Source of the DNA: Candidatus Bathyarchaeota archaeon
GTDB lineage: Archaea > Thermoproteota > Bathyarchaeia > TCS64
Direction: 5' to 3'
DNA: 64,000 nucleotides
Assembly: GCA_018396695.1 (NCBI GenBank)
Contig: JAGTQU010000006.1
Coordinates: forward strand, 4,137-68,136
In this document: positions 40,985 to 47,075 of the stretch, in pieces
Layout of the letters: each line of letters begins with the position of its first letter
Numbering within the stretch: position 1 is the stretch's first letter
Position numbers and translations under genes: made by a program
Notes under the pieces: model-generated
Told to the model about the DNA's origin: nothing
The model's database searches: none
The model's input: only the letters and a program-made list of their open reading frames with translations

Positions 40985-42433
40985 ATGGACACGGAAATCG
41001 AATTTTTCAATACAGTTAAGATCGCCGCTGAAAAACTAGTTGAGAGTTTAGTTGACCATAAATCTATACGTTTGATAATCCACAGCGATGCTGATGGCAT
41101 AGCTGCAGGCGCGATCCTCGCTCGTGCTCTTTCAAGACTCGAAATCGGATTTAAAGTCTCATGTGTTAACCGCATTGATGAATCTCTTATAGGGTCGATC
41201 ATAGGAGATGAATGCTCTCTCATAATCTTCTCTGACATAGGTAGCGGGTATCTAGACGTATTAAAAGACCGTATGAAAGAGAAAGAGGTTATTGTGCTTG
41301 ATCATCATGTCTATGTTGAAGCTAACTCAGATAATATTTTGCACGTAAACCCTATGATACAGGGGTTAGACGCTTCAAAAGGCGTAAGCGGGGCAGGGAT
41401 ATCCTATTTCTTCTCGAAAGAGGTTGATAAGAAGAATATTGACTTAAGCCCTCTTGGAATAGTCGGAGCCTTGGCAGACCAGCAAGATAAGGGAGAGAAA
41501 AAAAATCTTCTAGGATTGAATTGTATAATAGAGTCAGATGCTAAAAATTCAGGGTTATTGGAGACTAGCATCGGTCTTCTCTTCTACGGCTATGAGACCC
41601 GCCCTATTGCAAAAGCTATAGCCTACACCACTAACCCTTTCATCCCTGGTTTAAGCGGTAGAGAGGATAAATGTTTAGCATTTCTTAAAGAGATCGGAGT
41701 AGAACTAAAGAGCGAAGGACGATGGAGGGCGGTTAGAGATCTAAGCGAAGAAGAAAAGCGTAAAGTCTTCTCAGCCTTGTCGAAACACATGGTCTTCGAA
41801 GGGTTCGACCCGAAGACGGTGCACGAGCTCGTCGGGACAGTCTATACTTTTACGAGAGAAGATCCGTGGACTCCTATGAGGGACGGACGAGAATACGCAT
41901 CGCTGCTCAATGCCTGTGCAAGAATGGATCGACCGAGTGTGGGTTTAGCAATAGGTTTAGGAGACAGGAATACCGCGTTCAATGAAGGAGAAGCTATCTT
42001 AGATGATTATCGGAAAAAAGTCTCAGAATATCTTGACTGGGTTCGAACAAATGGGAACATTGTCGAGTTAGAGAACGTCTACCTTCTTAGAGGAGACCAA
42101 AAAATAAACGATCGGATCATCGGAGTTGTAGCGTCAATCCTATTATCTACAGGAGCACTTAAAAAGCAGATGCCCTTGATAGCCATCGCGAAATCTGATG
42201 GAAGATTGTTGAAGATATCTGGACGCGCTACTGAGGAATTGGCGCATATGGAAGTGGACCTAGGTTCAGTTATGATGAAGGCAGCTATGAATGTCAATGG
42301 TAGAGGGGGAGGGCACGACATAGCTGCGGGTGCTTACATCCCTGAATCAAGTGAGGAAGAGTTTCTCAGGATGATAGATGAATTTGTCGGAGACCAGAGA
42401 AAAATTGGAGTTCATAGTGGAGATAAAGATTAA
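40985..42433 (+). CDS. DHH-family phosphoesterase/RecJ-like nuclease
   Basis: IHSDADGIAAGAILARAL, DIGSGYLD, DHH-like VLDHHVY, GRGGGHDIAAGA. Confidence 0.9.
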   Translation: MDTEIEFFNTVKIAAEKLVESLVDHKSIRLIIHSDADGIAAGAILARALSRLEIGFKVSCVNRIDESLIGSIIGDECSLIIFSDIGSGYLDVLKDRMKEKEVIVLDHHVYVEANSDNILHVNPMIQGLDASKGVSGAGISYFFSKEVDKKNIDLSPLGIVGALADQQDKGEKKNLLGLNCIIESDAKNSGLLETSIGLLFYGYETRPIAKAIAYTTNPFIPGLSGREDKCLAFLKEIGVELKSEGRWRAVRDLSEEEKRKVFSALSKHMVFEGFDPKTVHELVGTVYTFTREDPWTPMRDGREYASLLNACARMDRPSVGLAIGLGDRNTAFNEGEAILDDYRKKVSEYLDWVRTNGNIVELENVYLLRGDQKINDRIIGVVASILLSTGALKKQMPLIAIAKSDGRLLKISGRATEELAHMEVDLGSVMMKAAMNVNGRGGGHDIAAGAYIPESSEEEFLRMIDEFVGDQRKIGVHSGDKD

Positions 42434-42653
42434 CTATCCTGATAAGGCTTCAGCCGAGTCTATTTTAAAGGCCATCTCGCCTGACAATCGTTCTGCTCCA
42501 CCTGGCATAGAAATAAAGTCCGAAGTCTCAAAGAATGCGGTGAAGTTGTCTATTTCCTGCGTTAAGGGGCTAGGAAGCTTAATTTCTACAATTGATGATC
42601 TTCTCTCATGTATACAAATAGCTGAAAAAGCTTTAAAAGGGATAATAAATTAG
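42378..42653 (+). CDS. pcc1: KEOPS subunit Pcc1 (start uncertain, may be an internal TTG/GTG)
   Basis: IKINYPDKASAESILKAISPDN...VKLSISCVKGLGSLISTIDDLLSCIQIAEKAL. Confidence 0.8.
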   Translation: MNLSETREKLEFIVEIKINYPDKASAESILKAISPDNRSAPPGIEIKSEVSKNAVKLSISCVKGLGSLISTIDDLLSCIQIAEKALKGIIN

Positions 42654-42695
42654 CATAAATAGATAAATTTAGCTAGTTAGGTTCTCTATAATAGT

Positions 42696-42914
42696 TGTAG
42701 CGCGGATCACAGACCTTAACCGAGCGTCCCCGGTGCGGCAACATCGGCCGATCGATCCTAAGCACCGCGCGACTGCTTATAGGATCTTGTCGCCTTGCCT
42801 GTGCTCGTAAACATGAGATTCGCTCAGGCTAACCCGAGTAGTTCATCTTCCTTCAGCTTCCTTTCGGAGACTTCAGTCCGATGAGTCTCATGTCACGATT
42901 TTATCCGCGCTACA
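42696..42914 (-). ncRNA. Candidate 219-nt structured non-coding RNA of unknown class
   Basis: Closed by perfect 12-bp stem TGTAGCGCGGAT/ATCCGCGCTACA; internal CATGAGA/TCTCATG, GATCC..GGATC and GGCAA/TTGCC helices. G-U wobbles and a UCC-GAAA-GGA tetraloop form only on the minus strand; no ORF; GC-rich against AT-rich flanks. Confidence 0.65.
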
Positions 42915-42987
42915 CCTATTATAAAGTATTGAGAAGTATTTTATCTTTCTGTTTAATGGAAACAATAATACTCTTTACTATGAATAG

Positions 42988-43093
42988 AACCTCAATAGAT
43001 TTTTTGATATAAAATAGTTAATAATGTCGCAATAATACATGACTAAAAATTTTTTTTACTCTAGAGATTTAAATGGGGTTTTAAAATTAGGCT
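42988..43093 (+). repeat. Direct repeat A, copy 1
   Basis: aacctcaatagattttttgatataaaatagtt...ggggttttaaaattaggct; matches 43446-43550 except one extra T in a poly-T run. Confidence 0.97.
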
Positions 43094-43449
43094 CTTCAGT
43101 TTATATCCATCAATAGTATTTACCATGAAAATGCCGTCTATCTTCGTACTTCTTCTTCTAATCAAGCTTCGCAGATAGTCTCTTAGATACTCGTGTCCTT
43201 TGAAAACGGTTTTAGCTTGGTGACCATCAACGCTGGTTATCTGAAAGTAGAGTTTCAAATACTCTTGAGAGAAGTCCCCAGTTATTTGAGAGAGAGTCGT
43301 CTCTAGGACCCTCCCAACGATTTTGTTAGGATCCTCAGCAGGGGTCTCTCCTAATTTTGATTCCCCAAAGTAACGAGGAAGCTGCGCTTCAAACCACTCT
43401 TTCTGTCTCCACTTGTCTTTTACAGCTCTTGACAAAGCTCTTTTAAACC
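43093..43449 (-). repeat. 357-bp inverted partial copy of eS1 coding sequence
   Basis: Reverse complement of 43638-43994 by reading, same length; encoded peptide FKRALSRAV...DGYKLK identical. Confidence 0.96.
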
Positions 43450-43550
43450 TCAATAGATTTTTTGATATAAAATAGTTAATAATGTCGCAATAATACATGA
43501 CTAAAAATTTTTTTACTCTAGAGATTTAAATGGGGTTTTAAAATTAGGCT
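43446..43550 (+). repeat. Direct repeat A, copy 2 (upstream of intact eS1)
   Basis: Matches 42988-43093. Confidence 0.97.
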
Positions 43551-43603
43551 TATATTTCAAAAACTGTGGTTGAATCCTGAGAAATCTCAGAAAGATATAA
43601 ATT

Positions 43604-44227
43604 TTGGACAATCAATTTCAAGTCATCAAACTATCGGGGTTTAAAAGAGCTTTGTCAAGAGCTGTAAAAGACAAGTGGAGACAGAAAGAGTGGTTTGAAG
43701 CGCAGCTTCCTCGTTACTTTGGGGAATCAAAATTAGGAGAGACCCCTGCTGAGGATCCTAACAAAATCGTTGGGAGGGTCCTAGAGACGACTCTCTCTCA
43801 AATAACTGGGGACTTCTCTCAAGAGTATTTGAAACTCTACTTTCAGATAACCAGCGTTGATGGTCACCAAGCTAAAACCGTTTTCAAAGGACACGAGTAT
43901 CTAAGAGACTATCTGCGAAGCTTGATTAGAAGAAGAAGTACGAAGATAGACGGCATTTTCATGGTAAATACTATTGATGGATATAAACTGAAGATCATTG
44001 TCGTGGCTCTGAGCCAGAAAAGGATCAAAACTTCTCAAGAGAAAAAGATTAGAAGCATCATGAAAAACATTGTTGAATCGAAAGCCAAGGTTTTAACCTT
44101 CGAGCAAATGGTTCACGAAATCGTTCTAGGTAAACTCGCATCAGATATTTATAATGAGGCAAGAAAGATCACGAATTTGAGACATGTCGGTGTAAGAAAG
44201 TCTGAACTATTGGCAATGCCAAATTAA
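43604..44227 (+). CDS. rps3ae: Ribosomal protein eS1 (S3Ae)
   Basis: VKDKWRQKEWFEAQLPRYFGESKLGETPAEDPNKIVGRVLETTLSQITGDFSQEYLKLYFQI; TTG start. Confidence 0.93.
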   Translation: MDNQFQVIKLSGFKRALSRAVKDKWRQKEWFEAQLPRYFGESKLGETPAEDPNKIVGRVLETTLSQITGDFSQEYLKLYFQITSVDGHQAKTVFKGHEYLRDYLRSLIRRRSTKIDGIFMVNTIDGYKLKIIVVALSQKRIKTSQEKKIRSIMKNIVESKAKVLTFEQMVHEIVLGKLASDIYNEARKITNLRHVGVRKSELLAMPN

Positions 44228-45785: not shown

Positions 45786-47075
45786 ATGAAGGCAGTTATT
45801 CTCGCAGCAGGGAAGGGGATTCGGTTCAAACCCTTCTCTCTAACGAAGCCTAAGCCTATGATCCCGATTGGCGGGAAGCCACTATTAGAGTGGATTCTAA
45901 TTAGGCTTAGAGAAGCAGGCGTAAATGAAGTTTTGATAGTTACACACTATTTGGAGGATCTTATAAGAGAATATTTTAGAGATGGAGAAAAACTCGGTAT
46001 AAAAATAGAATACTCTAGACAGGAGGCTCTGAAAGGGACTGCTGATGCGTTTGCTTTGATGGAGCCTTTTTCGCATGATGAAGAGTTCATCGGTTTATAC
46101 GGAGACTGCTATCTATCAGAGAGGACGATAGAGACTGTGATGAGGAACCATGAAGAGGGTTCAGCGACTCTAACTATCTTAGAGATGGATGACCCCTCTA
46201 ATTACGGTGTAGTCAAACTTCGAGGAGACGTAGTTACAGGGATCGTTGAAAAACCTGGAATCTGTAATCTCGACGTAGTTACAGGGATCGTTGAAAAACC
46301 TGGAATCGGGGAATCTGCTAGTCACTATGCGAACGTTGGACTATACATCTTTCCTCCCGAGATTTTCCGCTGGATCAGGGATACTAAACCTTCTAAGAGG
46401 GGGGAATACGAGATTACAGATTCCATTGAACTGATGGTGAAAAATGATTCAACTGTTCGCGCGGTTAAAATAACAGACGATATGTGGATCGATGTCGGTT
46501 TACCTTGGAATTTGCTCGATGCCAACATGCGAGCCTTAACCTCAATGAAAAGCGTAGTTGAAGGAGAGGTAGAAGAAGGCGCACATCTATCGGGCATGGT
46601 TAAAGTTGAGAGAGGTTCCAGGATCAGGTCGGGGGCATATATTGAGGGTCCAGTCTTCATAGGAAAAGACTGTGATATTGGTCCAAATTGCTATATACGC
46701 CCACATACGAGTATAGGTGCGAAAGTTAGAATAGGAAATGCTTGTGAGATAAAGAATAGTATAATAATGGATGGGACAAATATTTCACACCTCTCTTATA
46801 TCGGAGACAGTGTAATAGGTGAACGGTGTAATCTTGGGGCTGGCACGATCACCGCAAACCTTAGATTCGATAAGAAGACTGTGAAGGTTGAAATAGAGGG
46901 GAGGATTCTTGACTCTAAAAAAGGCAAGCTTGGGGCTTTTATAGGAGACGAAGCTCAGACAGGCGTAAACGTGAGTATTATGCCAGGAGTCAAGATAGGG
47001 TACAAATCCTGGATCGCTCCAGGGGTCACCGTCTATGGGAGTGTTCCTGAAAACACGTTTCTAAAAACCTCTTAA
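45786..47075 (+). CDS. Bifunctional sugar-1-phosphate nucleotidylyltransferase/acetyltransferase (archaeal GlmU-like)
   Basis: MKAVILAAGKGIRFKPFSLTKPKPMIPIGGKPLLEW; C-terminal hexapeptide left-handed beta-helix repeats. Confidence 0.92.
   Translation: MKAVILAAGKGIRFKPFSLTKPKPMIPIGGKPLLEWILIRLREAGVNEVLIVTHYLEDLIREYFRDGEKLGIKIEYSRQEALKGTADAFALMEPFSHDEEFIGLYGDCYLSERTIETVMRNHEEGSATLTILEMDDPSNYGVVKLRGDVVTGIVEKPGICNLDVVTGIVEKPGIGESASHYANVGLYIFPPEIFRWIRDTKPSKRGEYEITDSIELMVKNDSTVRAVKITDDMWIDVGLPWNLLDANMRALTSMKSVVEGEVEEGAHLSGMVKVERGSRIRSGAYIEGPVFIGKDCDIGPNCYIRPHTSIGAKVRIGNACEIKNSIIMDGTNISHLSYIGDSVIGERCNLGAGTITANLRFDKKTVKVEIEGRILDSKKGKLGAFIGDEAQTGVNVSIMPGVKIGYKSWIAPGVTVYGSVPENTFLKTS
46227..46307 (+). 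repeat. 36-nt perfect direct repeat (45-nt period) inside the GlmU-like gene
   Basis: gacgtagttacagggatcgttgaaaaacctggaatc at 46227-46262 and 46272-46307; encodes DVVTGIVEKPGI-CNL-DVVTGIVEKPGI. Confidence 0.97.

Follow-up and report, generated by a model that had tools for sequence, protein, structure and literature searches.

A 458-bp insert beside the eS1 gene of a Bathyarchaeota draft genome is most probably an assembly artifact at a scaffold join

Introduction

Several described systems resemble, in part, the locus that we report here. In MDA, inverted chimeras with microhomology are the main type of chimera, the inverted segment coming from within a few kb and priming occurring through short complementarity (PMC1855051), and in WGA assemblies, where palindromes are seen, correcting the reads for palindromes removed the inverted duplications from one assembly (PMC6218980). 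Among MAGs from IDBA-UD and CLC assemblies, a described local assembly error is a true overlap that is written twice at a scaffold join, whereby genes are spoilt (PMC7111523). Models of template switching and of tandem inversion duplication are also available (PMC2621351, PMC4689423).

The locus analyzed here is an inverted partial copy of the eS1 (rps3ae) gene in a 64-kb stretch of a Candidatus Bathyarchaeota draft genome, hereafter the window. It resembles the MAG join errors in that an apparent overlap is written twice; in contrast to them, an inverted tail separates the two copies, an arrangement for which we found no description in the literature passages searched. As in MDA and fold-back chimeras, the inverted segment comes from within a few kb. 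The left junctions of four further joins in the same draft carry 8, 6, 5, and 7 nt of microhomology, whereas that at eS1 has only 1 nt, and a chimera of this kind alone would give one inverted junction with no return to the preceding sequence, whereas the eS1 locus does return to it. The draft also contains a palindrome, as WGA assemblies do. Tandem inversion duplication and FoSTeS-MMBIR share with the eS1 locus the direct, inverted, direct order of copies, and their junction microhomology may have a counterpart in the 1 and 4 nt at eS1; these are, however, cellular events, whereas the pattern in this draft follows the written orientation of the contigs and sits at scaffold gaps.

Results and Discussion

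The original prediction had described positions 43093-43449 as an undivergent inverted copy of 43638-43994, with 188 bp between the arms and microhomology of 4 nt and 1 nt at the junctions, and each of these points held on re-examination. The arms match exactly at 357 of 357 bases, a length far above chance expectation; the spacing is again 188 bp; and the junctions share AACC at the inner (right) end and a single T, at 43093, on the left. When the window was scanned with exact 20-nt seeds, this pair was its only inverted repeat. Absent from the original prediction were a direct repeat that brackets the inverted copy, a second join in the window at 46227-46307, and further joins elsewhere in the genome. 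The locus reads in the order X-A-rc(B)-A'-C-B-Y (Table 1), with direct, inverted, and direct copies and two novel junctions, and the insert of 458 bp consists of an extra copy of A plus rc(B). The sole difference between A and A' is the length of a T run, from which it follows that the two copies rest on different sequence data, although two copies in a real molecule could do so too.

Table 1. Positions of the features at the eS1 locus and at the other joins of the draft (plain numbers refer to the window; prefixed ones to other sampled loci)
Feature	Position	Strand	Remarks
pcc1-like gene, upstream of the insert	42378..42653	+	Pfam PF09341; gene order as in relatives
Candidate structured RNA	42684-42926	-	~230 nt, between pcc1 and eS1
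A, first direct repeat copy	42988..43093	+	106 nt, T8; 105/106 match to 43446-43550
Truncated eS1 fragment ORF, not a gene	43061..43498	-	PF01015 (Ribosomal_S3Ae) positions 4-115 of 191
rc(B), exact inverted copy of 43638-43994	43093..43449	-	Read as inverted tail written at the join
Start of A', AACC	43446-43449		Common to the end of rc(B)
A', second direct repeat copy	43446..43550	+	T7; read as true start of the right-hand contig
C, single-copy segment carrying the eS1 promoter	43551..43637	+
BRE/TATA-like box	43590-43602		GAAAGATATAAAT; upstream of eS1
B, source of the inverted copy	43638..43994	+	Mostly within intact eS1
Intact eS1 (rps3ae)	43652..44227	+	Probable TTG start at 43652; PF01015, E 6e-68
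Join in the window	46227..46307	+	36-bp duplication (46227-46262, 46272-46307), 9-nt filler
C87 join	L103:4060-4662		291-294-bp duplication; exact inverted match of 26 nt across the filler to L103:4975-5000
C74 join	L146:10125-11011		439-bp duplication; inverted match of 15 nt to a stretch within A
C69 join	L167:5465-5968		247-bp duplication; 16 nt inverted from L167:6207-6222
C38 palindrome	L130:10006-10531		Perfect, 526 bp, no spacer

The order S15-DHH-pcc1-RNA-eS1-phosphomutase is common to the window and its relatives, and the nearest named match to eS1, from a Bathyarchaeota MAG, is 79% identical. The motif GAAA[GC][AG]TATAAAT is kept upstream of eS1 in 12 relatives at a roughly equal distance, and almost all relatives compared have a TTG aligned with the one at 43652. 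The gene, its conserved promoter, and its start codon are intact. Because the promoter box and the TTG both sit downstream of the inverted copy, eS1 looks functional, and the copy, which does not include promoter segment C, is without this promoter. The reverse-strand ORF at the copy had been held to be no independent gene, in agreement with a profile match that covers only part of the Ribosomal_S3Ae domain. The distance from the RNA to residue 20 of eS1 is 321 bp in the nearest relative (L023) and ~748 bp in the window, or ~290 bp once the 458 bp are subtracted. Comparison with sister genomes, which had been proposed as a check on the insert, showed it to be extra in the window: neither the insert nor a similar repeat was found in 28 relative loci (0/28), a result that shows only that it is extra and cannot tell a recent mutation from an artifact.

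The spacer between pcc1 and eS1 also contains a candidate structured RNA, so far uncharacterized. The same RNA is carried by the pcc1-eS1 spacers of seven other loci (L004, L007, L009, L012, L013, L017, and L022) and is conserved in Bathyarchaeota. Its folding is much stronger than that of shuffled sequences, with z-scores of -7.6 on the minus strand and -6.5 on the plus strand, and 20 of the 62 consensus pairs show compensatory changes. It matches no Rfam family, and since the genome has SRP RNA and RNase P RNA at other places, it is probably neither of these.

A sample comprising 1.69 of the 1.90 Mb of the draft was analyzed by a local-repeat scan and subsequent dissection, for which blastn was used. 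Four further direct duplications (36-439 bp) came to light, all with the layout A-[inverted filler]-A', in which the short filler exactly repeats nearby DNA in inverted orientation, and the perfect palindrome was found besides. With filler and flank taken together, the inverted matches at these four joins are 15, 16, 17, and 26 nt long (the 17 nt at 46256-46272, for example, are an exact inverted copy of 46409-46425), whereas in a control with 10-nt fillers at 300 random positions the longest overlapping inverted match did not exceed 14 nt at 299 of them and was 59 at the other. A 39-bp duplication in another locus (L100) was left uncounted, as it has no inverted filler. At all six sites the copies are practically identical, with at most one mismatch or one homopolymer indel. 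The summed microhomology of the left junctions over the five joins was never reached in 200,000 simulations, whereas that of the right junctions is at chance level (4 nt at eS1 and 0, 0, 1, and 1 nt where the filler is short; P 0.16), as would be expected of a primed chimera on the left and a simple join on the right. The same local-repeat scan revealed no such joins in 540 kb of relatives, a sample too small to exclude an equal rate (by our estimate P ~0.15) and drawn from assemblies that vary in quality. Overlaps between contig ends have no fixed length, so the k of the assembler is unreadable from them.

The joins also alter genes. That in C69 frameshifts pstA by 257 bp, so that TIGR00974 is split across two frames, while relatives carry intact pstA open frames, and the palindrome splits a flavin-reductase-like gene, profile positions 76-88 being missing between the pieces. 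A cysteine-desulfurase-like protein is lengthened by 103 aa at the C87 join, to 506 aa as against 405 in two order-level relatives; an open frame of 492 aa is present in G004, a relative of the same family. The second join in the window, likely an artifact of the same kind, is in frame and lengthens an archaeal GlmU-like enzyme by 15 aa, an insertion absent in the five relatives compared, and the C74 duplication alters an unnamed gene. At least two of the events interrupt conserved genes (pstA and flavin reductase), and because conserved genes are interrupted or lengthened at joins, there is no sign of selection against damage. Purifying selection is likewise not visible at the joins, where copies have diverged by no more than one mismatch or homopolymer base.

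If these duplications are joins that have been closed, then joins that are still open should look alike. We therefore examined 50 short N-gaps in the sampled contigs, defining a tail as an exact inverted match, 12 nt or longer, to DNA no more than 2 kb away; the N-runs, which are short and variable (6-131 nt), were read as original scaffold gaps, although four whole contigs, withheld or masked, consist of N as well. Tails of 12-26 nt terminate the left flank at 14 of the 50 gaps, whereas none of the 50 right flanks has one, and they occur at 2 of 1500 random positions (Fisher p ~2e-20 for left flanks vs random positions, ~4e-5 for left vs right). In FASTA orientation all of the tails are thus on the left (14/14), and the short-filler closed joins share this polarity, bringing the count to 18/18 (p ~8e-6). 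Since the orientation of a contig is arbitrary relative to the chromosome, one-sided tails point to an assembly or gap-extension step: they are made by assembly, a biological process being blind to the direction in which a contig is written. A 12-N gap in another Bathyarchaeota MAG (L029:9017-9028, JAGTQI010000014.1) adjoins a 23-nt inverted tail which, as this locus is shown reversed, is again on the left in the deposited orientation. Such inverted-tail artifacts may be widespread among MAGs.

For the eS1 insert, the best reading is an inverted-tail join that was later closed. The left contig X would have been extended rightward through the true sequence A, and the extension would then have entered a snap-back (inverted) molecule or misoriented reads, giving the contig a tail, rc(B), copied from the opposite strand of nearby DNA. 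This tailed contig would have been joined to the right-hand contig starting at A', and because it was joined there, the true overlap A would have been written twice with the inverted tail between. The layout and its repetition at four further joins were observed directly, as were the palindrome and the one-sided tails at open N-gaps. The eS1 join would have passed through the same tail step, and the tails may derive from fold-back chimeras (phi29/MDA or library preparation) or from misoriented gap-filling reads. We put the probability that the insert is an assembly artifact at a scaffold join, and not a real feature of the organism, at about 90%. The organism itself most likely lacks the 458 bp, its locus running X-A-C-eS1, and the insert would be functionless. 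The original prediction had left open a recent template switch or an artifact, and it is the artifact that is now strongly favored, because inverted tails occur draft-wide at the left flanks of N-gaps and never at the right. Against this stand the lack of any N at the eS1 join, unlike the open gaps, and a tail that is far longer there (352 new nt vs 9-18 nt). With these two features and a left junction of less homology than the right (1 nt vs 4), it is the least typical of the five joins.

A true cellular event at eS1, by template switch or by repair of a staggered break, we consider unlikely. In a real and very recent double template switch (FoSTeS/MMBIR, or tandem inversion duplication in its asymmetric form), the nascent strand would leave the end of A, copy 357 nt backwards from eS1, and resume at the start of A, a two-switch event that would yield the observed layout and leave a viable allele with eS1, promoter, and start codon intact. 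The junctions have 1 and 4 nt of microhomology, and the arms are identical, as for a new event. Such an event has to be set beside no fewer than five further joins in the same draft with no apparent age and inverted tails at open gaps on one side only. A close inverted repeat flanked by direct repeats is expected to disappear rapidly, and several young repeats of this kind together in one consensus are improbable; we regard a template switch as decidedly unlikely. We are just as skeptical of the broader proposition that template switching or staggered-break repair is frequent in this Bathyarchaeia lineage and leaves direct duplications with templated inverted fillers, eS1 being a fresh 458-bp case beside an intact essential gene. 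If the lineage habitually mutated through repair of staggered double-strand breaks, fill-in of long 5' overhangs would duplicate A, after which one end would prime nearby, copy an inverted filler, and be closed by end joining. This would account for the duplicated A and for the microhomologous left and blunt right junctions at four joins, but it explains neither the inverted tails beside N-gaps nor the left-only polarity in FASTA orientation, and strikes us as barely plausible. A defect in palindrome repair was considered as well: a weak Rad50 zinc-hook match lies in an 825-aa open frame, and nothing points to absence of the pathway.

Readings other than an artifact or a cellular event deserve almost no weight. 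Perfect pairing of the arms would be possible in a read-through transcript, and the minus-strand ORF is open, as would suit a functional inverted repeat, whether an antisense eS1 RNA, a hairpin controlling eS1, or a divergent duplicate gene. Yet the insert occurs in none of the relatives, the conserved promoter in C lies downstream of the copy, so that its transcript would exclude the copy, and there is neither divergence nor a trace of selection; we find this reading scarcely credible, and an antisense or hairpin role was rejected on the first two of these grounds. Rfam microRNA matches on the hairpin were also set aside, as their scores lie well under the gathering cutoffs and they reflect nothing but the inverted repeat.

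Reading the insert as an assembly artifact, we see its biological meaning as most likely none and its use as one of quality control. The draft is an estimated ~96% complete, and it contains at least six false-looking joins, by which the pstA, flavin reductase, cysteine-desulfurase-like, and GlmU-like genes look spoilt or altered and a false eS1 fragment added. No reads are needed to scan for the signature of the artifact, which is either a direct duplication around a short inverted filler or an exact inverted tail beside an N-gap; a second deposited MAG has it at one gap.

CRISPR-like arrays with ~37-bp repeats starting GTTTCAATC were also observed, at L149:8563-9040 (C83) and L064:10117-10222 (C77).
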